From Chitinophaga barathri (GTDB taxonomy: Bacteria; Bacteroidota; Bacteroidia; Chitinophagales; Chitinophagaceae): DNA of 64,000 nucleotides. A program made the translations under genes and the position numbers. Below the pieces are notes generated by a model. The model saw only the letters and a program-made list of their open reading frames with translations, was not told the DNA's origin and searched no databases. The stretch is from positions 186,001 through 250,000 of the forward strand of contig NZ_RMBX01000014.1 of assembly GCF_003807585.1 (NCBI RefSeq). Direction: 5' to 3'. Numbering within the stretch: the stretch's first letter is position 1; each line of letters begins with the position of its first letter. Shown one piece after another: positions 48,548-60,336 of this stretch.

Positions 48548-48727
48548 CTACCAAATATTACTAAATAACAATTCCACCCTACTCATATAGGTTTATTTAA
48601 ATGCGAAATAACTATTATATCAGTTGTGAAGGGCTTGCGCGGGGAATCTGTATCTTTACAGGCGGAGAGCGGGCCTGAATTAACAATTACATAATGTTAT
48701 CTTTCCATGAATGGGGAATATGCTGAT

Positions 48728-48735
48728 TAATTTTG
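48728..48735 (+). promoter_or_regulatory. -7 promoter element of the PhoB-like gene
   Basis: TAATTTTG, a full match; it implies a short leader to the ATG at 48757 or 48763. No 11-bp GTTAC-type repeats occur at the position where they are found in the downstream phosphate genes. Confidence 0.5.
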
Positions 48736-48756
48736 TGCCGTCTTAAAAACCAAATT

Positions 48757-49446
48757 ATGTTGATGGAACCTTCAGTTGCAGTTGGAAAAATCCTGGTAGT
48801 AGACGATGAAGCGGATATACTCGAGATCATCAGCTATAACCTGAAGAGCGCCGGGTACGATACCGTTACCGCTAAGGATGGTATAGAAGCGATCCAGAAA
48901 GCCAAAATATTCCGTCCGGACCTGATCATGCTGGATATCATGATGCCGAACAAAAACGGCATCGATACCTGCCGCGAGATACGAAAGCTGCCTGAGTTCA
49001 AGGAAACGATGGTGCTTTTTCTTACCGCGCTGAACGATGAAAAGAGTGAGATTGAAGGGCTGAACATGGGCGCGGACGATTATATCGCCAAACCTATCAA
49101 GCCGAAATTACTGGTGAGCCGCATCAACGCCCTTTTCCGCAGGCTGAACAAAGTGGAAGAACAGCAGATGCACCTCGGCGACCTCATCATTGACCGCGAA
49201 AAATTTACCGTTACCTATAAAGGCGTGGAGATCATCCTGGCCAAAAAAGAATTTGAACTGCTCCAGCTCCTGGCTTCCAAACCGGGCAGAGTGTTCCTCC
49301 GCAACGAGATCCTGAACCAGGTTTGGGGCACCGAAGTGATCGTAGGGGACCGTACCATAGACGTACACATCCGCAAGATCCGCCAGAAACTGGGCGTGGA
49401 CCTGATCACCACCGTAAAAGGCGTAGGCTATAAGTTCGAACTGTAA
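48757..49446 (+). CDS. phoB: OmpR/PhoB-family response regulator
   Basis: DNA-binding regulator, probably of the phosphate regulon. Seen: receiver with ILVVDDEADILE, phospho-acceptor Asp in LIMLDIMMPNKNG (Asp60 from the first Met), Lys in DDYIAKPIKPK; winged helix with LAKKEFELLQLLASKPGRVF, WGTEVIVGDRTIDVHIRKIR and KGVGYKFEL. Two in-frame ATGs (48757, 48763) are both plausible; an upstream TTG at 48733 overlaps the promoter. The kinase gene follows on the same strand. The Pho assignment rests on its PhoB-like end motifs and on the phosphate genes and 11-bp repeats within the next 12 kb. Confidence 0.85.
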   Translation: MLMEPSVAVGKILVVDDEADILEIISYNLKSAGYDTVTAKDGIEAIQKAKIFRPDLIMLDIMMPNKNGIDTCREIRKLPEFKETMVLFLTALNDEKSEIEGLNMGADDYIAKPIKPKLLVSRINALFRRLNKVEEQQMHLGDLIIDREKFTVTYKGVEIILAKKEFELLQLLASKPGRVFLRNEILNQVWGTEVIVGDRTIDVHIRKIRQKLGVDLITTVKGVGYKFEL

Positions 49447-49577
49447 TAATTGTAACCCACCACTGTATATTCCTCTCCCCGCTGCATGCTCTGAGCGTGA
49501 ACCTGGCTTCGTGAATTATGGCAAGTAAAAAAATTGGCTTAATTTCCCTTTATTACAAAAATTACTCACTCTGGAGT

Positions 49578-50630
49578 ATGTTCAAAGCAAAAAACCTTTC
49601 GCCGCAAAAGCTGGCGGGCTTTACAGCGCTGGTACTTTCCGCCATCATGGCCGCGGGCTGCCTTCTTATTGGCGCCAATTACAAGGAAACCCTTATCGCT
49701 TTCGCCCTCACTTTCCTGGTGGCCTATTACCTGTACCTCTATACCCTGCAGAACTTTATCTATCGCAAGATCAAGCTGATCTACAAATTCATTTACCAGA
49801 CCAAGGCCTCCAAACGGGAAGATTTTTTCAACAAAAATATCCTGCCGCTGAAGACTATTGACGAGGTAAGCGAAGACGTGGAAAAATGGGCTTCCCAGAA
49901 AAAAGAAGAGCTGGACAATCTCCGCCGGAACGAAGCTTTCCGCAAAGAGTTCCTGCTGAACCTTTCCCACGAGCTCAAAACCCCCATCTTCGCGGTGCAG
50001 GGATATATTCACACCCTGCTGGACGGGGCGATCGAAGACCCTACCGTGAACAAGATGTTCCTCAAAAACGCCACCAAGAACATTGACCGCCTCTGCCGCC
50101 TGATAGACGACCTGGATGAAATATCCAAGCTCGAAAGCGGTGAAATGACCATCAACAAAGAGATCTTCGTGATACAGGACCTCGTGAAAGATGTGTTTGA
50201 CACGCTCAGCATCAAGGCCAAACAGAAAGAAATAAAATTCAGCATCAAAAAAGGCTGCGAAGCTCCCGTGCATGTATACGCGGACAAAGAAAAGATCCGC
50301 CAGGTGCTGATCAATCTCATCGAAAACTCCGTGAAATACGGTAAGCCGGACGGGCAGACCATCGCCAGCATTTATAACATGGACGGCAAACGCGTACTGG
50401 TGGAGATCTCAGACACCGGCATCGGTATGGCTGAAGAACATCTGCCGCGTGTATTTGAACGTTTTTACCGTACGGACCGCGCCCGCAGCAGGGACATCGG
50501 CGGTACCGGCCTGGGCCTTGCCATCGTAAAACATATCGTTGAAGCGCACGACCAGACCATCAATGTGCGCAGTAAAATAGAGGTGGGCTCCACCTTTGGT
50601 TTCACCCTGGAACTGGGCAAGGATAATTAA
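49578..50630 (+). CDS. phoR: PhoR-like sensor histidine kinase
   Basis: Membrane kinase partner of the preceding regulator. Seen: two N-terminal helices at about residues 11-34 and 39-59 with almost no periplasmic loop, as in PhoR; a HAMP-like linker; H-box FLLNLSHELKTPIF with His131; N-box VLINLIENSVKYG; G1 ISDTGIGM, F-box RVFERFYR, G2 GTGLGLAIVKHIVEAH. No PAS domain is obvious. I prefer the ATG at 49578 (MFKAKNLSPQ); an ATG at 49518 would add 20 atypical residues. The gap to the regulator is 71-131 nt depending on the start. The Pho role is by homology and context. Confidence 0.88.
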   Translation: MFKAKNLSPQKLAGFTALVLSAIMAAGCLLIGANYKETLIAFALTFLVAYYLYLYTLQNFIYRKIKLIYKFIYQTKASKREDFFNKNILPLKTIDEVSEDVEKWASQKKEELDNLRRNEAFRKEFLLNLSHELKTPIFAVQGYIHTLLDGAIEDPTVNKMFLKNATKNIDRLCRLIDDLDEISKLESGEMTINKEIFVIQDLVKDVFDTLSIKAKQKEIKFSIKKGCEAPVHVYADKEKIRQVLINLIENSVKYGKPDGQTIASIYNMDGKRVLVEISDTGIGMAEEHLPRVFERFYRTDRARSRDIGGTGLGLAIVKHIVEAHDQTINVRSKIEVGSTFGFTLELGKDN

Positions 50631-51143: not shown

Positions 51144-52481
51144 TCAGAACCGGTATTGCAGCCTCGCGGTGAATACATTGTCCGCAATATCGTCCTCAAA
51201 CCCTTCTATGCCCGTGGATTCATTCCACACCCGGTCGAACCAGAAGGTGGCTTTCATATTTTCATTGAGATAATACACGTACCCGAAGCCGAAGGTATCG
51301 TAACGGATGTCCGTAAGGGAAAGGTGTGTGGTTAAAGTCTCCGCGATCTGGCGGCCTTTCACGTCCGTGTTCGGGTCGTACCAGTCGTATTTGAGCACCA
51401 GCTGGTGTTTTTTGCTGCCCAGGTGTTGCAGGAAGGTAAAGTATGCCCCATCGAAATTACGGATGTACAGGGGCGCAAAACCGGCGGGATTCACGGGTAT
51501 CACACCGGGCGTCTCACTGTCTAAAAACGTAGCGGTCTGTACGCCGCGGATATATTCCGCTCTCAGCTGTGTGGCGCCGCTGCGGTTCGGGATCAGCAGC
51601 TGTGCATCCGCGCCGTAATAATGCCTCGGGGCTATTTTCCCTACATTGGTCACGGCGGAATCCACCTCAAAATCAGGGTGGCCGTTGGTCGCTATCCCCA
51701 TGTTATAAATTTCTTTTGTGAACTGCTCCATGCCGCCATATAGTACGCTGGCACCGGCAGCCAGCAGCCATCCCTGCCGGTTGATGCTGGTGGGCTTCAT
51801 AGCTACGCGGGCGATAAGGTCTTTGTGACTGTCAAAGTCCGCGGGGCCTGACAGGCCCTGCCCGTTGAAGGCACCGATATCTATTTTAAGCGCATGAAGC
51901 GGATGCGTTTTATCCCTGGGCTCAAACGTAAGCATCGCGCCCATATCGCGTTCGCTTCTCATCAATATCTGCGACATACGGCCGCGTTCTGGCGCTTCAC
52001 GGTCGCCGGAGGACAGGTTCACTTCATAACCGAAAGGCCGGGCGAACATACCCATGGTAAGCGCCGCAACATCCCACTGCCCGTCGAACAGGCGACCCCA
52101 GAAGTCGCGGATATTCACGCCGCGCTCCGTACCGTCAAACTGGAAAACGAACTGCACGGTGGGTCGGTTCCTTTTGTTGAAGTGCGCGTAATCAAAACGG
52201 ACACGGCCCCGACGGAGCATAAAGCGGTTGTTGCTGTTGCCCGCGAAGTTGCCGCCGGCATAACTTTCTACGCCTTTACCGGATGCATACTGGAACTGCG
52301 GCTGCATGTAGCCGCTGATGCGCAGGGCGTCATAACGCAGGTACATGGAGATCATCCCCTTACCCAGGCTGGTAGTGGTATCGATCATGTCCATCAGGAA
52401 CTGAGCTTTGGACACGAACGAACTAAATATGAAAATTACTATCAATATTACCTTCCGGGCGGTGGTCTTCCTGTTTGTCAT
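51144..52481 (-). CDS. Phosphate-selective porin O/P-like outer-membrane protein
   Basis: OprO/OprP-type porin, 445 residues. Seen: signal peptide (VILIVIFIFSSFVSKAQ); LRYDALRISGYMQPQFQYA at the start of the barrel; RFMLRRGRVRFDYAHFNKRN, the family's R-rich strand; MGMFARPFGYEVNLSSGDREAPERG; and a C-terminal FTARLQYRF ending in Phe. Placement beside phoBR and the phosphate-transport genes fits phosphate passage across the outer membrane, though in Bacteroidota this family is broader. ATG at 52481 chosen; 3 codons upstream are unlikely. It has its own promoter at 52488-52519 without Pho-type repeats. Confidence 0.85.
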   Translation of the reverse strand: MTNRKTTARKVILIVIFIFSSFVSKAQFLMDMIDTTTSLGKGMISMYLRYDALRISGYMQPQFQYASGKGVESYAGGNFAGNSNNRFMLRRGRVRFDYAHFNKRNRPTVQFVFQFDGTERGVNIRDFWGRLFDGQWDVAALTMGMFARPFGYEVNLSSGDREAPERGRMSQILMRSERDMGAMLTFEPRDKTHPLHALKIDIGAFNGQGLSGPADFDSHKDLIARVAMKPTSINRQGWLLAAGASVLYGGMEQFTKEIYNMGIATNGHPDFEVDSAVTNVGKIAPRHYYGADAQLLIPNRSGATQLRAEYIRGVQTATFLDSETPGVIPVNPAGFAPLYIRNFDGAYFTFLQHLGSKKHQLVLKYDWYDPNTDVKGRQIAETLTTHLSLTDIRYDTFGFGYVYYLNENMKATFWFDRVWNESTGIEGFEDDIADNVFTARLQYRF

Positions 52482-52487
52482 ACCGCG

Positions 52488-52519
52488 CAAAAATAGGAAA
52501 TGCCGCCTTGAAACAAAAA
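52488..52519 (-). promoter_or_regulatory. Promoter of the porin gene, overlapping a terminator
   Basis: Leftward -33 TTTTTG (52519-52514), 18-bp spacer, -7 TATTTTTG (52495-52488), a very good Bacteroidota promoter. The -33 hexamer is the T-run of the preceding gene's terminator. Confidence 0.65.
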
Positions 52520-52572: not shown

Positions 52573-53973
52573 CTAGTAAACCTTGTTCTGAGGATCGAAG
52601 TTAGCCCAGCCGGTGAGCCAGTTCGTAGTACCAAAGGCGCCACGGTAGGTAGCAGTCTCAATACCGGCAAAAGGTGCAAATGTACCACTCAGTGCAGGTG
52701 AACCCGTTTTAGGCAGGAAGTTGGGATTAGCCAGGTTGAAAGGATCGGTCAGACCAACTGCGTCAGCAGATGCAGCAACAGTAGTACCTACTTCTGTCAG
52801 TTTGGCGATCAGCTTCTGAGAAGCGTCGAGGATCATTTCATCCCTGCGGGCGGGAGTCATCGGGCTTTCGTAAGTGCCGGTTGCAAAGAGACGGGCGGTA
52901 GAAGAATCCGTTGTGGCTACTTTCGTAGTAGCTACTGTATAGATAATATTGTTTTTATAAGCAGTATTCGCGTTAGCCATGAAGTAATCCCAGGTGGGTT
53001 TAGATTCGAAAGCCGTGCCGCCTTTCTGTGCACCCAGGATGATAGAGTTCAGGAAAACCAGGTTGGTAGCTCTTCTCCAGCGATTGCCATAGTTGTGGTT
53101 ACCGGCAGTACCAGCAGCACCGTTAGGGCCTACGATGGTCATGTTGGACACTACTGGGCGGGTGAACGGAGTCTGGTTGGTGGATTGACCGTCGTTATCG
53201 CACTCAATACCGTTACCAGCGTCTCCCGGGTCAACGAACTTAGGATCACGTAATGCTACAGCGTATTGTACAGTGCCGGTGTATCCGAAATCGAAATCGA
53301 AATCGTCATCAGCAGTAGCGTAGGCTACCAGGTGGCGAGGGTTTACGGTGCCGCCGAAGAATTCGTAAGCATCGTCGTTGGCATACGCAGTCATTACATA
53401 ATCAATTGTAGTGCCGCTGCCTACACCGCCGAGAGTGAGGGAGTTGATCTCAGAGTTCGCGAAAGCTGCGATACCAGCGTATTCAATGCGCACATATTTC
53501 AGTGTGCCGGAATTATCTGCCGCGTCAGTACCACCATATTTCTCGCCGATACCACCTTCGATCTGGGGTTCAACTTTATTGGTCGGCGCTTTACCAAGCA
53601 GCACAATACCGCCCCAGTCGCCAGGACCACGGCTGCCGGCTGCTTTACCGGAAGTAAATACAATTGGCTTATCTACAGTACCTACAGCCATCAGCTTGCT
53701 GCCGCGTGTAATGATCAGGGAACCTTTTTCAGTGACGTCACTCTTGATCACGGTACCCTCCTGAATAGTAAGGATCGCGTCATTTTTAACCTTCACCTGA
53801 CCTTTTAAAATCCATACCCTGTCATTGGTCAGTGTTTTGCTGGTCGTGATATCGCCCACGAGGGTTTCAGGCAGTATTGGGTCCATGTCGTCATCGTCCG
53901 TGTCGTTATTGCGGCAAGCAGACAATAACACAGCTGCGCCAAATGTAAAGGCAAGAAATTTTGCAAGTTTCAT
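52573..53973 (-). CDS. Asp-rich surface lipoprotein paired with the TonB receptor
   Basis: A 466-residue predicted lipoprotein with lipobox LLSAC (Cys20) and an acidic linker [12 protein letters not shown], often seen on surface-exposed lipoproteins. The body suggests a right-handed beta-helix: [47 protein letters not shown] and [17 protein letters not shown] striking acidic block [13 protein letters not shown] follows [10 protein letters not shown], which could bind Ca2+ or another cation. Function unknown. It lies 111 nt after the TonB receptor stop with its own 11-bp repeat array and a terminator, so it is separately controlled but likely partners the receptor, as SusD partners SusC. That role is inference. 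Confidence 0.8.
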
Positions 53974-54010: not shown

Positions 54011-54066
54011 CAAAGGTGTTGGTTAAATGTTACAGGTACTTTAACAAAGCGTTACCAAATTGTTAA
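54011..54066 (-). promoter_or_regulatory. Candidate Pho box array and -7 of the Asp-rich lipoprotein gene
   Basis: On the + strand, half-sites GTTAC (54029), TTTAA (54040), GTTAC (54051) and GTTAA (54062) are spaced exactly 11 bp. The leftward -7 is CACCTTTG (54018-54011, one base off TAnnTTTG). The nearest half-site starts 11 nt from the -7 edge, with no separate -33. Confidence 0.75.
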
Positions 54067-54084
54067 GGCGCCTGTAATTACATC

Positions 54085-56916
54085 TTATTTCTTCTTTCCT
54101 AATCCGAATTGATAGGTGAAAGTAAGAGACACGTTAGTGCCATATTTGAACGTGCTGATTACCTGGTCGTCGCTATTTTTCTGATAGCTTTTCTTATCTG
54201 CGCCAACCGGGTTCTGATAGAAAACGGCTTCATTGTTCAGAATATCGCTCACGTTCAGGCGCAGTTCTCCTTTTTTCTTGATCACCTTCTTCGCAACCTG
54301 GAAATCAAGGATATTACGGCCATTCTCATAAATATCCGCGTAGTCTTTAAAACCTACAAGGTAGATGCGCGGACCAATCTTGTTATATAATACGCCCACC
54401 ACAAAATCATTGTCTTCAGCCGCGTATTGCAGTCCCGCGTTAACCAGGTAGGGGCTCTGGCCCTGAAGAGCGCGCGCATTACCATCTGATGTATACCCTT
54501 GCAGGTCTACTGTTGAATGGATATAGGAGAAGTTGGTGAACGCCGTCATGCGGTCAAAGAAAGGCTCGGAGCTGATAAAGTCCAGTTTTTTCCTCAGTTC
54601 CACTTCAAAGCCGAGAGCGGAAGCGGAAGGCGCGTTTCTGAACAGCAGCAGGCGTCTGTTCGGTGTCGATCCCGGATCCACGTACTGTTCAATGGCGTCT
54701 TTGAATTGTTTATAAAACACTGAACCGGTAATTGCTTCGCCCACACCGGGGTAAAGCTCATAACGGAAATCAATGTTCGTGATATTGGCGCGTTTCAGAT
54801 CCGTGTTACCCTGAACCATGCTGTAGGTAATAAAATCGTAGTAGACGAAATTGCTCAACTCACGCAGTTCCGGGCGGCTCACCGTCCTGGAGCCGGACAA
54901 ACGAAGGTTAGACTTTTCGTTCAGCGCATAGGAGATATTGGCGGAAGGCAGGAAATCGAAATAAGTGATGTCTTTTTTGATGGTCTTGCCGGTTGCATCT
55001 GCCGTTTTAATATACTGGTAATAAGATTCACCTCTGCCGCCCCAAACGAACCTCCATTTGTCGCCTATCTTGTTGTCGAACTGTATATAGCCGGCCATCA
55101 GGTCCGTATTAGCGGAGTATCTGTCGGAGTTATTGGTGATATCGTTCATCACAAAACCATTGTTCACAATATTTTCGTCTGCGAATATTTCACCCGTAGG
55201 GAGGTATTTAAGGGATTCATTATAACCTGAGTAGGCTGACCATATGTACCCCAGTACCCTGGCGTTGAAATCACGCTGCCTGTAGAGCTTCTGTCCACCA
55301 ATTTTCACACTCTGTTTTACATCTGAAATATTGAAAGGTATCGTCAAAGAAGCGGTACCGCCGATGTTGTCTTCTGTAAGCAGGGAATAAAAACGGGAAG
55401 CCTGTCTGGATGCGGAACCAAAGGGCACCTGGGCCTCGTATCGTTCGGCGCTGCCGAGGCCTTTACCATAAGACAATATTTTCATATCCGGCTGGTTGCG
55501 GTCTATCAATGAATAGTTCAGGTTCCAGTCCAGCTTCCAGTCTTTCTTATTCAACTTATGGCTGCCTTCCAGCTGGGAATTCAGCAGGGTTTTCATCACC
55601 AATTCCTGGCTGGTTACCAGCAGGTCATTGTTATTATCGTAGTTTACACCGGCACGGTCGGTGAAATTGTTGTCCAGAATACGGTTGAAGATATTTTTGA
55701 AGGATATCTTATTGTTGCCTTTCACATAAGTAAAGTTGGCAATGGCGCCGATGCTGGTATTATATTTATAGATGTCATCAGTAAAGCGATAGCTGGCGGC
55801 CTTGGTAAAGTCATAGTCATAGCGGCTTCCAGGCTGAATATTCTCTGCATTGCGATAAGTGAGACTGATGATGCTGCCGAATGAGCCGTCTTTTTTCAGG
55901 CGGATGCGATTGCCCCAGGTAAGCTGGTAGTTCTGCGTGGGCAGTGCCCCGCCGAAGTTCTGCGTGGCAAAAGTATTCTTAAAATCCCTGGTAAGGCTCA
56001 GCTGCTTATCCAGCGGCATTACCGCATATTTGCTGCGGGAAGAAGGGAAAGACGCAGGCAGCTCGCGGGTGCCATCGTCAAAGCCGAGCCAGTCGTTCTT
56101 GCCGCGCTCCATGCCCTTGGTATCCTTAAAAGTGCTTTGTGTATTGTAGCCATAGCCGAGGCTTACGGAAATATAATTTTCGGTAGGTATGTCCTTCGTG
56201 AAAACTTGCACCAGGCCGCCGGCAAATTCACCGGGCATTTCAGGAGATGCGGTTTTGTTGATCACGATATTGTCGATCAGGTTGGAAGGAATGATATCGA
56301 AGGAGAATGTTTTCCTGTCGGGCTCAGTGCTGGGCAGGATGGCGTTGTTGATGGTGGCCGTGTTATAACGGTCGCTCAGGCCTCGCACAATAATATACTT
56401 ATTATCCTGGATGCTGGCGCCGCTGACACGCTTCAGTACTTCGCCGGTGTTACGGTCCGGAGAGCGGCGGATGCTTTCACCGGAAATACCGCTGGAAATG
56501 CTGGGGTTATTTTTCTGCGCCGCATAAAGGGCGTTGATGGTTTCCTGTTTGTAAGATCCGCGGATCACCACTTCCTGGAGATCTTTGGATTTGGGTTCAT
56601 CCAGCGCAATATCCAGCGTGGTCACCTGGCCATTCTTCACTACTACGTCCGCAATGGATTTGGTAGAATACCCCATATATTTATAATCCAGGGTATAAGT
56701 GCCGGGCTCCAGCTGGATGATGTAACGGCCTTCCACGTCAGTAACCGCGCCTTTGCTGGTGCCTGTAACGAGTACGGTCACGCCGATCAGCAGTTCGCCC
56801 GTTTTTTTGTCTGTAAGTTTGCCGGATACTTTGCCGGTGCCTGTCTGTGCCTGGACGTTGAAACATCCCAACAATAAAATCCCGATTAATTGTACAACGA
56901 TAATACTACGTTTCAC
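54085..56916 (-). CDS. TonB-dependent receptor, candidate phosphate-regulon member
   Basis: Large outer-membrane receptor, 943 residues. Domains: signal peptide (QLIGILLLGCFNVQAQ); carboxypeptidase-regulatory-like domain at about 27-115 (GKLTDKKTGELLIGVTVLVT); plug at about 140-270 with TGEVLKRVSGASIQDNKYII, VRGLSDRYNTATINNAILPS and GEFAGGLVQVFTKDIP; then a long barrel ending LTFTYQFGLGKKK. It is not SusC. Two phased arrays of 11-bp half-sites precede it, the strongest such array in the window, and its lipoprotein neighbour and the PhoU/PiT operon have the same elements. Uptake of phosphate, or an organic or mineral phosphate form, is the inferred role. Confidence 0.88.
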   Translation of the reverse strand: MKRSIIVVQLIGILLLGCFNVQAQTGTGKVSGKLTDKKTGELLIGVTVLVTGTSKGAVTDVEGRYIIQLEPGTYTLDYKYMGYSTKSIADVVVKNGQVTTLDIALDEPKSKDLQEVVIRGSYKQETINALYAAQKNNPSISSGISGESIRRSPDRNTGEVLKRVSGASIQDNKYIIVRGLSDRYNTATINNAILPSTEPDRKTFSFDIIPSNLIDNIVINKTASPEMPGEFAGGLVQVFTKDIPTENYISVSLGYGYNTQSTFKDTKGMERGKNDWLGFDDGTRELPASFPSSRSKYAVMPLDKQLSLTRDFKNTFATQNFGGALPTQNYQLTWGNRIRLKKDGSFGSIISLTYRNAENIQPGSRYDYDFTKAASYRFTDDIYKYNTSIGAIANFTYVKGNNKISFKNIFNRILDNNFTDRAGVNYDNNNDLLVTSQELVMKTLLNSQLEGSHKLNKKDWKLDWNLNYSLIDRNQPDMKILSYGKGLGSAERYEAQVPFGSASRQASRFYSLLTEDNIGGTASLTIPFNISDVKQSVKIGGQKLYRQRDFNARVLGYIWSAYSGYNESLKYLPTGEIFADENIVNNGFVMNDITNNSDRYSANTDLMAGYIQFDNKIGDKWRFVWGGRGESYYQYIKTADATGKTIKKDITYFDFLPSANISYALNEKSNLRLSGSRTVSRPELRELSNFVYYDFITYSMVQGNTDLKRANITNIDFRYELYPGVGEAITGSVFYKQFKDAIEQYVDPGSTPNRRLLLFRNAPSASALGFEVELRKKLDFISSEPFFDRMTAFTNFSYIHSTVDLQGYTSDGNARALQGQSPYLVNAGLQYAAEDNDFVVGVLYNKIGPRIYLVGFKDYADIYENGRNILDFQVAKKVIKKKGELRLNVSDILNNEAVFYQNPVGADKKSYQKNSDDQVISTFKYGTNVSLTFTYQFGLGKKK

Positions 56917-56934
56917 GATCTGTTATTTATGCCG

Positions 56935-57019
56935 CAAAACTACCTTCGGGGTATTACGCCTATGTTAAGCCAATATTACCAGAATGTTAATTGTTAAGAA
57001 ATGATTAATAAATCGTTAA
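56935..57019 (-). promoter_or_regulatory. Candidate Pho box array and -7 of the TonB receptor
   Basis: + strand half-sites ATTAC (56953), GTTAA (56964), ATTAC (56975), GTTAA (56986) at 11-bp steps, then a second set GTTAA (56993), ATTAA (57004), GTTAA (57015), also at 11-bp steps but shifted by 7. The leftward -7 TAGTTTTG is at 56942-56935; the nearest half-site starts 11 nt away. Confidence 0.8.
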
Positions 57020-57108
57020 CAATCACAAGGTGCGTGAAGGTTAAAAAAATGGGGTATAGGTCTATAGGACGGGCCGGAGAACCGGCCAGGTATTCAATCT
57101 TAGGGTTT

Positions 57109-57483
57109 TCAACTGGCTTTATTTTGCCTCGTCAGCTGCTCGATAGATATATCCAGCAACCGGTCCGCCCCGTTTCCGCTGCAAGGCGTAATCTGGAACA
57201 GGCGCAGGCTTTTATTCATGAATGGTTTGGAGTCCTGGTTGCACAGCTCAAGCGTGAAATGGAACTTTTCTTCCAGTTCTTCCTCAAATTCACGGAGGCT
57301 GAGTGTTTCATCGATAGGATGTTCCACCATGACTTCCTCCTCCAGCCCCGCTTCGCGGAGCGTATCAAATGCATTCGCCAGGGAATGGTGAATATACACA
57401 GCCGCGTTGCAATGAAGCAACCGCTGTATCTGCATCTGTAATAAGGATATCGTCATTAATGGATGTAACTTGAGCGTCTTCAT
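57109..57483 (-). CDS. Small protein of unknown function behind a Pho-type promoter
   Basis: A 124-residue protein not recognised as any family. Seen: no signal peptide; LQMQIQRLLHCNAAVYIHHS forms a likely amphipathic helix, followed by a very acidic region (LEEEVMVEHPIDETLSLREF, then EEELEEKFHFTLELCNQ) and a basic tail LTRQNKAS. Probably cytoplasmic. The ATG at 57483 is preferred over the TTG just before it. What makes it notable is its promoter: three 11-bp half-sites and a consensus -7 in the same geometry as the TonB receptor, so it is probably induced with it. Confidence 0.65.
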   Translation of the reverse strand: MKTLKLHPLMTISLLQMQIQRLLHCNAAVYIHHSLANAFDTLREAGLEEEVMVEHPIDETLSLREFEEELEEKFHFTLELCNQDSKPFMNKSLRLFQITPCSGNGADRLLDISIEQLTRQNKAS

Positions 57484-57503
57484 CAATATTCTAGCTGGTT
57501 TCC

Positions 57504-57548
57504 CAAACTTACGTAGGTAAGGTTAATTAAATATTACCGCAAGGTTAA
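57504..57548 (-). promoter_or_regulatory. Candidate Pho box array and -7 of the 124-residue protein gene
   Basis: + strand half-sites GTTAA (57522), ATTAC (57533), GTTAA (57544) at exact 11-bp steps; leftward -7 TAAGTTTG at 57511-57504. The nearest half-site starts 11 nt from the -7 edge, as in the other two leftward promoters. Confidence 0.75.
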
Positions 57549-57593
57549 TTCTACATATAATTCTCTGGTTCTTAATTGTACGGCCAGGTTACA

Positions 57594-58424
57594 TCAGGTA
57601 GCAGGGAAAGTAACTACTTTTGCCACCGCCGCCCATTCCATCAGGCTCGTCTCTTCCTCTTCCTCCGGCTGGTGAGCTTTCTTTTCCGCGTGCTGGTAGA
57701 GTTTCCATTCGCCCTGGTGATATTCCAGGGAGGTAAGACTCTCCACCCAGTCGCCTGAGTTCAGATAAGTGATCGTTTTGCCGTTAAAGCTCATATTCTT
57801 AATCTCCGGCTGGTGGATGTGGCCGCAGCATACTACATCAAACTGCTTGTCCACGGCTATCTCCACCACCGTCTGTTCAAAATCCGAGATAAATTTCACC
57901 GCCTGTTTCACCCCTTCTTTCACTTTTTTGGAAAAAGACATCTTTTCCCGGCCCATTTTTTCGAGCAGGTGATTCACCAGGCGGTTGATAATAATAAGGA
58001 TATCGTACCCTTTGCCCCCCAGTTTGGCCAGCCATTTGGAATTTTTCATGGTCACATCGTACACATCCCCATGAAAAAACCAATGTCTTTTGCCGTCCAC
58101 TTCCAGGATCAGTTTGTTGTCTATCACAAAATTGCTGAGGCCAAACCCGGCATATTTACGCAGGGCTTCGTCGTGGTTGCCCGTGAGATAATATACTTCC
58201 GTTCCTTTGCCGATCATTTTGAGGATACGGCGGATCACTTTGGTATGGGACTTCGGGAAGTACCGTTTACTGAACTGCCAGATATCGATGATATCCCCGT
58301 TCAGTATAAGTATCCGTGGATCAATAGCGTCCAGGTACTGGACGAGCTCTTTTGCGTGACAGCCGTAAATCCCGAGGTGTACGTCGGAAATGACAACTAT
58401 ATCTAATGGTCGTTTGTCGGACAT
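57594..58424 (-). CDS. Calcineurin-type metallophosphoesterase (UDP-2,3-diacylglucosamine hydrolase-like)
   Basis: Dimetal phosphoesterase, 276 residues. Seen: VVISDVHLGIYGCHAKELVQ (DxH), ILNGDIIDIWQFSKR (GDxxD), LTGNHDEALRKY (GNHD), FFHGDVYD and CGHIHQPEIKNM (GHxH), with the order and length typical of the LpxH-like group that hydrolyses UDP-diacylglucosamine in lipid A synthesis. Phosphatases of other substrates share this fold, and its place in the phosphate cluster leaves a scavenging role open. No 11-bp repeats precede it, so I see no direct Pho control. Confidence 0.88.
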   Translation of the reverse strand: MSDKRPLDIVVISDVHLGIYGCHAKELVQYLDAIDPRILILNGDIIDIWQFSKRYFPKSHTKVIRRILKMIGKGTEVYYLTGNHDEALRKYAGFGLSNFVIDNKLILEVDGKRHWFFHGDVYDVTMKNSKWLAKLGGKGYDILIIINRLVNHLLEKMGREKMSFSKKVKEGVKQAVKFISDFEQTVVEIAVDKQFDVVCCGHIHQPEIKNMSFNGKTITYLNSGDWVESLTSLEYHQGEWKLYQHAEKKAHQPEEEEETSLMEWAAVAKVVTFPAT

Positions 58425-58541
58425 TTTTCAGTTATTCGGGAAAATCCGGTCTTGATCAAACTATTTAATATAATCTTTGTTAGTTATGTGTTCGGGTATA
58501 CCGGAGCCCTCTTTTTTCTTATGCAAAGGAAAAAATGCTAT

Positions 58542-58624
58542 ATTACTTTTATATTACTACAGTGTTACCAAAACATTAATTCTGAAAATTTCTTGGCTCC
58601 TATACTTACAGAAAGCTAATTTTG
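58542..58624 (+). promoter_or_regulatory. Candidate Pho box array and promoter of the DUF47-PiT operon
   Basis: Half-sites ATTAC (58542), ATTAC (58553), GTTAC (58564), ATTAA (58575) at exact 11-bp steps, then -33 TTG (58593-58595), 21-bp spacer and -7 TAATTTTG (58617-58624). The array lies farther from the -7 and in the opposite orientation relative to transcription than in the three leftward promoters. Confidence 0.7.
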
Positions 58625-58654: not shown

Positions 58655-59305
58655 ATGGGAGGCTTTAATTCTATTGTTAAACTGTTCATGCCGAAAGACA
58701 GGGTATTCTATTCACTTTTTGAAGACGTGGCGGCTAACCTGGTAGAAATGGGTCAGGTGCTCGTGGAACTGGTGGAAACCAAAGACTTATCTGTCAGGAA
58801 GGACAAAGTGCACCTGATCGAGCGGCTGGAACATAAAAACGATGACTATACCCATCGTATTTTCGTAGAATTGGGCCAGAACTTCATTACCCCGTTCGAC
58901 CGGGAGGATATTCACTACCTGGCATCCACGCTGGATGATGTGGCGGATTATATCCACGGATCGGCCAAACGTATTGATATTTACAAGGTGACCGAGATGA
59001 ATGACAGCATCCGTAAGCTCGCACAGCTCATCAATGAAGGTGTGCAGGAGCTTGCCCGCGCTATCCCCGAAATGCGTACCATGAGCAATATGAGGATCAT
59101 CACCGATGCCTGTGTAAAGATCAACAGCCTTGAGAACCATGCGGATGATATCTATGACCGTGCTATTGCGGACCTGTTTGAGCAGGAAAGCAATGCCGTG
59201 GAGCTCATCAAGATGCGCGAGATCTATCAGGCGCTGGAAATCGCTACCGACAAGTGCGAAGATTCCGCCAATGTGATAGAAACCATCATCATCAAATACG
59301 CATAG
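58655..59305 (+). CDS. DUF47/PhoU-like phosphate transport regulator
   Basis: Cytoplasmic helical-bundle protein of the PhoU-like DUF47 family, which accompanies PiT transporters and modulates them. Seen: LFMPKDRVFYSLFEDVAANL at the start; VHLIERLEHKNDDYTHRIFV with the family's E-x-x-x-D metal-binding pattern; LNFDREDI-like region FITPFDREDIHYLASTLDD; and a second half with INSLENHADDIYDRAIADLF repeating the E-x-x-A-D motif. 216 residues from the ATG at 58655; a TTG start 33 nt upstream overlaps the promoter. It is followed 17 nt later by pit. Confidence 0.95.
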   Translation: MGGFNSIVKLFMPKDRVFYSLFEDVAANLVEMGQVLVELVETKDLSVRKDKVHLIERLEHKNDDYTHRIFVELGQNFITPFDREDIHYLASTLDDVADYIHGSAKRIDIYKVTEMNDSIRKLAQLINEGVQELARAIPEMRTMSNMRIITDACVKINSLENHADDIYDRAIADLFEQESNAVELIKMREIYQALEIATDKCEDSANVIETIIIKYA

Positions 59306-59322
59306 CCGCAAACTGAATCCTC

Positions 59323-60336
59323 ATGGCTTTTCTAGTAGTAATTATCATACTGGCTTTCATTTTTGATTATATCAATGGTTTCCACGATGCGGCAAACTCT
59401 ATTGCCACGATTGTGTCCACCAAGGTGCTCACGCCGTTTCAGGCGGTATTGTGGGCGGCCCTTTTCAACTTTGCAGCCTTTTTTGTTTCCAAATACATTT
59501 ACGGGGAATTTAAGGTGGGTAATACCATCGCCAAGTCCGTTTTCGAAGAAGCCATCACCCTTAAAGTGATCTTCTCCGGGCTGGTGGCCGCTATTTCCTG
59601 GAACCTCCTCACCTGGTGGTACGGTATCCCTTCCAGCTCGTCCCACACCCTGATCGGCGGGTTCATCGGCGCGGCCGTGGCAAACGCAGGCGGCTCCTTT
59701 GACGTGATCAACTACGCTAAAGTATTACCCACGGTATATTTCATCGTACTCGCTCCTTTCATAGGCATGGTGGTAGCCTTCATCATCACTGTCATCATTG
59801 TGAACATCTGTAAAAGAGCAAACCCCTACCGGGCTGAAAACTGGTTCAAACGGTTGCAGCTCGTGTCTTCCGCGGCCTTTTCACTCGGCCACGGCGGCAA
59901 CGATGCCCAGAAAGTAATGGGTATCATTGCGGCGGCCATGGTGGCTCACGGCGGTATCCCCGGCGTAAAGACCATCATGGACGTGCCGGACTGGGTGCCT
60001 TTTGCGTGTTTTACCGCCATCGGCCTCGGTACGCTCAGCGGCGGCTGGAAGATCGTAAAAACCATGGGTACCCGCATTACCAAGGTGACCCCGCTGGAAG
60101 GCGTGAGCGCCGAAACCGCGGGCGCACTCACCCTGTACCTCACGGAAACCTTCGGTATCCCTGTGAGCACCACCCACACCATCACCGGCGCCATCATCGG
60201 CGTGGGCGCTACCAAACGCCTCTCCGCGGTACGCTGGGGGGTAACGGTGAACCTGCTCTGGGCCTGGATACTCACCATTCCCATCAGTGCGCTGCTGGCT
60301 TCCGGCGTCTACTTCGTCGTAAACCTGTTCATCTAG
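59323..60336 (+). CDS. pit: Low-affinity inorganic phosphate transporter (PiT family)
   Basis: Inner-membrane metal-phosphate:H+ symporter. Seen: N-terminal signature FDYINGFHDAANSIATIVST and its duplicate in the second half SAAFSLGHGGNDAQKVMGI, plus SSSHTLIGGFIGAAVA and VSTTHTITGAIIGVGA. The length of 337 fits the short bacterial PiT with about ten helices. In an operon with DUF47 under the 11-bp repeat array. A strong palindromic terminator follows at 60361. Confidence 0.96.
   Translation: MAFLVVIIILAFIFDYINGFHDAANSIATIVSTKVLTPFQAVLWAALFNFAAFFVSKYIYGEFKVGNTIAKSVFEEAITLKVIFSGLVAAISWNLLTWWYGIPSSSSHTLIGGFIGAAVANAGGSFDVINYAKVLPTVYFIVLAPFIGMVVAFIITVIIVNICKRANPYRAENWFKRLQLVSSAAFSLGHGGNDAQKVMGIIAAAMVAHGGIPGVKTIMDVPDWVPFACFTAIGLGTLSGGWKIVKTMGTRITKVTPLEGVSAETAGALTLYLTETFGIPVSTTHTITGAIIGVGATKRLSAVRWGVTVNLLWAWILTIPISALLASGVYFVVNLFI

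Follow-up and report, generated by a model that had tools for sequence, protein, structure and literature searches.

Arrays of short direct repeats at an exact 11-bp period precede a lipoprotein gene, a TonB-dependent receptor gene and other leftward genes of Chitinophaga barathri, where they stand at a fixed distance from a Bacteroidota -7 element. To judge from the sequence comparisons described here, these arrays are very probably Pho boxes, that is, operator sites for the response regulator of phosphate starvation; its likeliest identity is the PhoB-like protein whose gene lies nearby. They lie in a window of 64,000 nt (RefSeq assembly GCF_003807585.1, contig NZ_RMBX01000014.1, positions 186,001 to 250,000 of the forward strand), from the first base of which all coordinates are counted. 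An earlier reading of the window, referred to below as the original prediction, had proposed them as the Pho box of this lineage, and a scan of 247 genomes, which with its control favours phosphate-type genes, makes that proposal very probably right. The element is of the PHO-box kind but differs in its core and its larger number of units and is tied rigidly to the Bacteroidota -7; on its own it is insufficient to predict the regulon.

Repeat arrays and their promoters

Runs of at least three TTAM cores at a step of 11 occur at five places in the window (four cores from 54030, 56954 and 58543; three from 56994 and 57523), and no such run is found in it at steps of 8, 9, 10, 12 or 13. All 18 half-sites listed by the original prediction are in place, although the one at 54040 reads TTTAA, which fits TTAM and not the form (G/A)TTA(C/A) given for it. 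Read leftward, in the direction of the genes, the half-site is KTAAYATT. In four leftward promoters the last half-site begins exactly 15 nt before the start of a TAnnTTTG-like -7, namely those of the lipoprotein (54033/54018), the TonB receptor (56957/56942), a 125-codon protein (57526/57511) and a metallophosphoesterase (58546/58531). Expressed as the distance from array edge to -7, the 11 nt originally described for three leftward promoters holds for these and also for the fourth array, once that is read leftward.

Scores were taken from a whole-genome profile and from a matrix that covers four units together with the -7. The matrix was fitted to 57 upstream regions (28 TonB rows, without L069 and L087; 27 phosphoesterase rows, without L105 and L120 and without L097, which scored poorly; and two promoters of the window itself). 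The lipoprotein gene is preceded by four half-sites on the minus strand (54029-54066; -7 CACCTTTG at 54018-54011), with a matrix score of 39.3 as one of the 57 training sites and a profile E-value of 6.5e-7. Four minus-strand half-sites also stand before the TonB receptor gene (56953-56990; -7 TAGTTTTG at 56942-56935; matrix 49.5 as a training site; E=3.2e-9) and are kept in orthologs. Upstream of these, and out of phase with them, lies a second array of three half-sites (56993-57019), which are almost palindromic and hence ambiguous in direction; it is present in the congeners G006 and G106 as well. The 125-codon reading frame has three minus-strand half-sites (57522-57548; -7 TAAGTTTG at 57511-57504), which score 25.6 as a site used in training the matrix and E=0.026 against the profile, for which it was not used; a box also precedes a similar gene in G106 (E=0.0012). 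The last array, of four minus-strand half-sites (58542-58579), has the -7 TTCCTTTG at 58531-58524, a matrix score of 45.3 as a training site and a profile E-value of 6.0e-9, and aligns in two congeners.

This last array had been assigned to the rightward operon for a DUF47 protein and a PiT transporter. Its orientation and the 11-nt spacing from its edge at 58542 match instead the divergent metallophosphoesterase gene (57594-58424), and the operon has a promoter of its own with an ordinary -33/-7 layout on the plus strand (58593-58624; TTGG at 58593-58596, TAATTTTG at 58617-58624). Two congeners keep the array, the leftward -7 and the separate rightward promoter (TTCTTGG ... TAnTTTTG). On orientation, spacing and this conserved promoter, the operon was rejected as the prime target. 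That the array serves DUF47-PiT, or both divergent genes together, is a minority possibility: its end lies 38 bp upstream of the DUF47 -7, and co-oriented boxes precede DUF47 genes elsewhere (7 of the 77 reading frames behind matches of the profile scan described below, and two Flavobacterium genomes, L243 and L248), whereas the exact distance, the layout retained in the congeners and the presence of the box before phosphoesterase orthologs elsewhere suit the leftward gene. The operon may be affected by the array only indirectly.

A weak candidate box was found in the promoter of the phoB-like gene (48680-48735, plus strand), with two good and two degenerate half-sites in exact phase with the -7 TAATTTTG at 48728-48735. 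It is the best plus-strand position of the window, at 5.2 against a 99.99th percentile of -5.2. As the listed TTG start of the gene falls inside this -7, the true start is probably a downstream ATG.

Over the 6.86-Mb genome, three TTAM cores at step 11 match 37+24 times, against 7+10 for the reversed pattern, but unrelated 11-bp minisatellites (TTACTTGGACT type) account for many of these matches. The loose scan, swamped by such repeats, was replaced by KTAAY and KTAAYATT patterns and by the profile; three KTAAYATT units with up to three mismatches give 10 matches in the genome, overlapping registers counted, against none for the reversal. The tandem repeats fit the loose pattern and so raise the thought that the arrays of the window are a chance or repeat artefact of the same sort. 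This has practically no probability, as the arrays are unlike the minisatellites in sequence and are kept in place in orthologous promoters, a conservation that rules out such an origin. The minisatellites, of the TTACTTGGACT/TTACCTGGACT type and also TTACCCTGGAC-like, are dispersed over contigs C1, C4, C8, C11, C22, C23, C26 and C28 of G000. Phylum-wide, pattern counts give a match in 115 of 198 genomes; for AT-rich genomes, in which the reversed control matches too, such counts are noisy.

Conservation and target genes across the Bacteroidia

The 250 nt upstream of same-family orthologs were scanned with three KTAAYATT units (maximum score 24) at steps of 7 to 16, using 25 of 30 TonB loci (L069, L078, L087, L089 and L090 did not pass a length filter) and 28 of 30 phosphoesterase loci (without L105 and L120). 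At step 11, a score of at least 20 was reached in 23/25 TonB and 8/28 phosphoesterase upstream regions, with 16/28 of the latter at 19 or more. At the other steps in the same direction a single TonB upstream region (step 7) and no phosphoesterase region reached 20; on the opposite strand, at any step, 2/25 TonB and 1/28 phosphoesterase cases did so. Mean step-11 scores were 21.2 (TonB) and 18.8 (phosphoesterase), against 15.0 and 15.0 for shuffled sequences.

The fitted matrix has the core KTAA[CT]A(T). A matrix built from the TonB sites only placed all 27 phosphoesterase upstream regions, that of the window included, over the 99th percentile of shuffles, compared with 0/27 inside genes and 2/27 on the other strand. 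When the best three units were located without the -7 in 55 upstream regions, 51 of the 62 TTTG occurrences behind them lay at 15, 26, 37 or 48 nt, which is the phase of the array; the 18 cases at 48 nt leave space for six units, and L066 reads as six. These two tests are not fully independent, since the TonB-only matrix took its site positions from the joint fit and the half-site matrix of the TTTG test came from the same sites.

The profile, built from the 36 best-scoring of the 57 sites, was run on 247 Bacteroidia genomes at E<=0.001 (the E-values of the tool are rough) and returned 83 matches in 62 genomes where about 0.25 were expected. Four matches of the C. barathri genome itself and one training site were set aside, leaving 78. 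A reading frame of at least 60 codons begins within 100 nt downstream of 74 of these 78, as opposed to 204 of 600 random sites. By Pfam and BLAST, and with a reading frame for 77, the first downstream gene belongs to the expected phosphate-type classes in 61 of the 78. These comprise 20 of TonB-receptor type, eight lipoprotein homologs, seven DUF47 and seven PstS-type proteins, one Na/Pi cotransporter, three phosphoesterases (two of them orthologs of the window gene), four response regulators, of which three are 51-57% identical to the PhoB-like protein of the window, and 11 of porin type. The porin-type genes encode four Porin_O_P proteins, one homolog of the porin-like protein of the window (L506) and six related porin-like proteins with no Pfam match, and four of those six adjoin pstS by coordinates (L438, L442, L452 and L511). 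By BLAST alone, 48/77 match a protein of the cluster or the Marinifilum PstS, against 16/410 at random sites, for which 22 stretches of G441 and 10 from other genomes were sampled; the random matches were 12 histidine kinases, three TonB proteins and one lipoprotein, and DUF47, PstS, porin, phosphoesterase and PhoB matches were absent from these 410 sites. The original prediction had named an equal frequency before unrelated genes as the outcome that would speak against it, and on 247 genomes the comparison favours the Pho-box idea. The profile scan, together with the tests on pst operons and on G441 that follow, concerns genes outside the training set, though one pst genome, G014, comes from the family of the window.

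Marinifilum-type PstS is encoded at 13 loci in 12/247 genomes, and for 10/13 the matrix score is above 10 ahead of pstS itself or of a porin-like gene that leads the operon. A first scan, of 450 nt upstream of pstS, had looked weak, with 20 or more reached in 3/13 only; several pst operons begin with a porin-like gene and carry the box before that gene. In Marinifilum sp. N1E240, 130 nt separate the box from pstS, which is followed by pstC. The genome of the window offers no such test: its sole PstS-like (PBP_like_2) protein over cut-off (G000:C4:3972-4703) lies away from pst genes, beside an apparent TPR-repeat gene, and PiT may be the main phosphate importer here.

An exact-pattern scan of named genomes gave at least 118 stretches, 80 of them listed, with many Clostridia. 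The 27 examined were all those labelled Bacteroidota, Ignavibacteria, Nitrospirae or 'bacterium' and seven others, mostly by eye and in one case (L299) by Pfam. Among the matches listed, pst, porin-like, phosphoesterase or TonB genes lie behind 12 of the 27, namely 2/2 in Nitrospirae, 0/7 in the seven others and 10/18 in the rest.

Several further arrays were seen. Five to six in-step units occur in three genera of one family outside the class (L202, L203 and L219), before a small secreted protein in one; for the other two no forward reading frame was found. Two Flavobacterium genomes share a conserved array followed by a terminator-like hairpin (L244 and L249), with no downstream reading frame found for the former and one of 65 codons only for the latter. 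Boxes also precede similar-looking secreted proteins of about 150 aa and no named function in the window's own genome (G000:C27:349793-349849) and in two congeners (L247 and L251), and these proteins are candidate new phosphate genes.

Low-phosphate expression, the putative regulator and its neighbours

The genome G441 is almost certainly that of Flavobacterium johnsoniae, as its gene order matches the PhoBR operon and the phytase cluster in Table 1 of PMC8115612; locus tags are assigned on that basis. With a matrix trained on the family of the window, 286 upstream regions in 495 kb of G441 were ranked, a sample chosen largely around expected phosphate loci, so that the base rate is inflated; PhoX and some of the PUS genes were not located for this ranking. 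The order at the top was the OprP position, 0545, 1368, FII, an unknown outer-membrane protein, 0549 and FIII, and five of these seven promoters belong to genes with published low-phosphate induction. The log2 fold changes given in that table are 8.0 for the TonB receptor Fjoh_0545, 9.2 for 1368, a TonB receptor beside the phytase gene, 9.9 for the FII lipoprotein 0546, 7.6 for 0549 and 11.6 for FIII (4889) (PMC8115612). A box followed by a DUF47 gene is present in G441 and G408. A G441 protein encoded at 5.54 Mb, which carries PF12850, shares 57% identity with the phosphoesterase of the window; from its position it is probably the phospholipase PlcP, Fjoh_4577, induced 8.6 in the same table (PMC8115612).

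A number of observations weigh against the Pho-box reading or narrow it, many of them from F. johnsoniae. The best box of G441 stands at the OprP position, and OprP (Fjoh_0542) was uninduced in the published table, with a log2 fold change of -1.3 at a false discovery rate of 0.25 (PMC8115612). The 0549-position gene and 4889 score weakly, at 4.5 and 3.7. Induced genes with low ranks are FI (278 of 286), phoB (41), Fjoh_3857 (40), Fjoh_3841 (29) and Fjoh_0541 (13), and the PlcP homolog is outside the 22 best promoters, its upstream array being degenerate in-phase at most. Among the 78 matches of the profile scan, 17 fall outside the expected classes (16 with a reading frame, one without), two of the 16 being small proteins with a carboxypeptidase-regulatory domain alone (L439 and L458); within the 61, the regulator L471 (38% identical to the PhoB-like protein) and the phosphoesterase L482, of another kind, are not orthologs of window genes. 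Three of the 13 pst loci are weak (L417, L424 and L431), and for a strong one (L430, 29.1) one of 40 shuffles reached 23.1. Closer to home, the phoB promoter of the window has a weak box only, and the PhoB-like protein stays under the cut-offs of two PhoB models (TIGR02154, 218.3 of 296.2 bits; NF053854, the Bacteroides PhoB equivalog, 204.8 of 270 bits). In other families, similar TTAACATT arrays stand before non-phosphate genes, rhodanese-like ones among them, and half-sites of a like style are used by other OmpR-family regulators, as in the ArcA-like TTTAACA published for Riemerella PhoP.

As the box precedes some induced genes and others rank low, it explains part of the regulon, and the induced sigma factors of Table 1 may carry the rest. 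The original prediction went too far in holding that the box defines regulon members by sequence alone: a top-scoring gene is uninduced, induced FI, Fjoh_3857, Fjoh_3841 and phoB score low, and the arrays of other families lie before non-phosphate genes. In another family of the same order, such arrays were seen by eye before rhodanese-like lipoproteins (L133 and L134), a hint that a second regulon may share the half-site. Together with those before small secreted proteins, the arrays before rhodanese-like genes suggest a related regulator or a wider regulon.

These last observations, and the scores of the regulator under the PhoB cut-offs, are what would be expected if the arrays bound another member of the OmpR/PhoB family (ArcA-, WalR- or Riemerella-PhoP-like) that answers to envelope or redox stress, phosphate genes being part of its targets. 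We regard this as improbable: the targets of the profile scan are mostly phosphate-type genes with PhoB-like regulators among them, and the arrays of the window and of the F. johnsoniae-like genome adjoin phoB-phoR. Far less probable still is that the arrays are no operators and act as phased curved DNA or as UP-like elements in strong promoters. A/T-rich half-sites phased at 11 bp could bend DNA; the specific KTAAYATT core, the fixed orientation and the narrow set of target genes across families led us to reject curvature.

Under the preferred Pho-box reading, scarcity of phosphate would lead PhoR to phosphorylate PhoB, which would then bind head-to-tail on the 11-bp direct KTAAYATT repeats, one half-site per helical turn. 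Arrays have three or four units in the cluster of the window and apparently up to six in some relatives. The array stands in for the -33 element, phase-locked to the -7 TAnnTTTG at the 15-nt distance observed, and bound PhoB would thereby be able to hold RNA polymerase on the promoter. The predicted targets in the window are the TonB receptor, the lipoprotein, the 125-codon protein and the metallophosphoesterase.

The genes concerned lie close together, with the PhoB-like gene about 5-9 kb from the arrays and adjoining the cluster here and in G441. On the plus strand, 48733-49446 encodes the PhoB-like response regulator (Response_reg and Trans_reg_C), which is 55% identical to the G441 protein beside TonB and lipoprotein genes, and 49518-50630 a PhoR-like histidine kinase that scores under cut-off with each of the NCBIfam models PnpS (264.3 bits), WalK (234.2) and PhoR (226). 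The leftward genes, on the minus strand, are those for the TonB-dependent receptor (54085-56916, with plug and barrel Pfam domains), for the lipoprotein (52573-53973), matched by BLAST to G441 as a homolog of the F. johnsoniae FI/FII/FIII lipoproteins, and, third of the set, for a porin-like outer-membrane protein (51144-52490). Neither the lipoprotein nor the porin-like protein has a Pfam or NCBIfam match, and no box before the porin-like gene is among the top matrix sites of the window; its product shares 38% identity with L506 and shows a weak similarity (24-28%, E about 1e-7) to two proteins assigned to Porin_O_P by Pfam, L464 and L476. Further along the minus strand are the 125-codon protein (57109-57486), with no Pfam or NCBIfam match, and the LpxH/PlcP-like metallophosphoesterase (PF00149/PF12850); the DUF47 (PhoU_div) and PiT operon follows on the plus strand (58655-60336; PF01865 and PF01384). 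A reading frame similar by eye to the 125-codon protein lies directly upstream of a boxed porin-pst operon in G014 (L429).

A possible phylum-wide Pho code and known Pho boxes

We lean slightly towards a single Pho code across most of the phylum and beyond, in which up to six KTAAYATT units are phased to the -7. Its targets would be TonB receptors, lipoproteins, PlcP-type phospholipase, OprP-type porins, PiT or pst and phoB in the Bacteroidia, TonB and porin-like genes in Ignavibacteria and pst in Nitrospirota. If so, most of the regulon would be readable from DNA, and small secreted proteins would be marked as new phosphate genes. Bacteroidota are major phosphate scavengers, with the low-phosphate regulon of one member known by expression; a box defined in sequence and fixed in geometry would allow much of the regulon to be predicted in uncultured Bacteroidota genomes and would flag TonB receptors, lipoproteins and small secreted proteins of unknown role as phosphate genes. 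It would also offer a concrete site for studying how an activator acts at the unusual Bacteroidota promoter.

In B. subtilis (Bacillus subtilis), the PhoP box is made up of repeats of the TT[ACT]ACA type spaced about 11 bp apart, frequently four of them; the enterobacterial PHO box takes the place of the -35 element, and ArcA binds direct repeats of a GTTA type. The window arrays share the general features of PHO boxes, with 11-bp direct repeats upstream of the promoter, a preference for phosphate-acquisition genes and replacement of the -35/-33 at a fixed distance from the -10/-7. To the B. subtilis box the likeness, drawn from general descriptions and not base by base, extends to almost the same half-site and the layout of four repeats, in another phylum and on another type of promoter.

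Within the Bacteroidota, a literature search over sources other than subscription papers and regulon databases found no definition of a Pho box. Bacteroides fragilis PhoB binds a 512-bp pstC promoter fragment in an electrophoretic mobility shift assay (EMSA), and low-phosphate expression of pstC depends on it; the main text of that paper never uses the words 'motif', 'consensus' or 'binding site', and no half-site was seen there (PMC3547664). The F. johnsoniae regulon holds the same kinds of genes, with a PhoBR operon that includes a TonB receptor, FII and OprP, with PlcP and with several TonB systems; it is known from expression data, and neither 'pho box' nor 'promoter' occurs anywhere in the main text (PMC8115612). 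Putative PhoB sites have been predicted before marine plcP clusters, and plcP homologs reported in Flavobacteria; the likeness to our arrays is one of description, PhoB sites before plcP (PMC4796936). The PhoP protein of Riemerella anatipestifer, likewise an OmpR-family regulator of the Bacteroidota, has a DAP-seq motif whose most conserved part is TTTAACA, ArcA-like, with sites checked by EMSA; in the portions of the report available, its targets are not mainly phosphate genes and the motif is not called a Pho box (PMC9603813).

A close parallel has been described in the enterobacteria. PHO boxes there consist of directly repeated 11-nt units, in which seven positions are well conserved and four less so; they are bound head-to-tail and lie near phosphate genes. 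Species differ in the core of the box (E. coli has CTGTCAT, Streptomyces coelicolor GTTCACC), and B. subtilis has similar features, according to the sections of the account we draw on (PMC4415409). The arrays of C. barathri repeat this plan with a core of their own, KTAAYAT in place of the E. coli CTGTCAT, from which it differs at positions 3 and 4 while sharing T..CAT, and with three or four units, more in some relatives, in place of two, locked to TAnnTTTG (PMC4415409 for the E. coli box).

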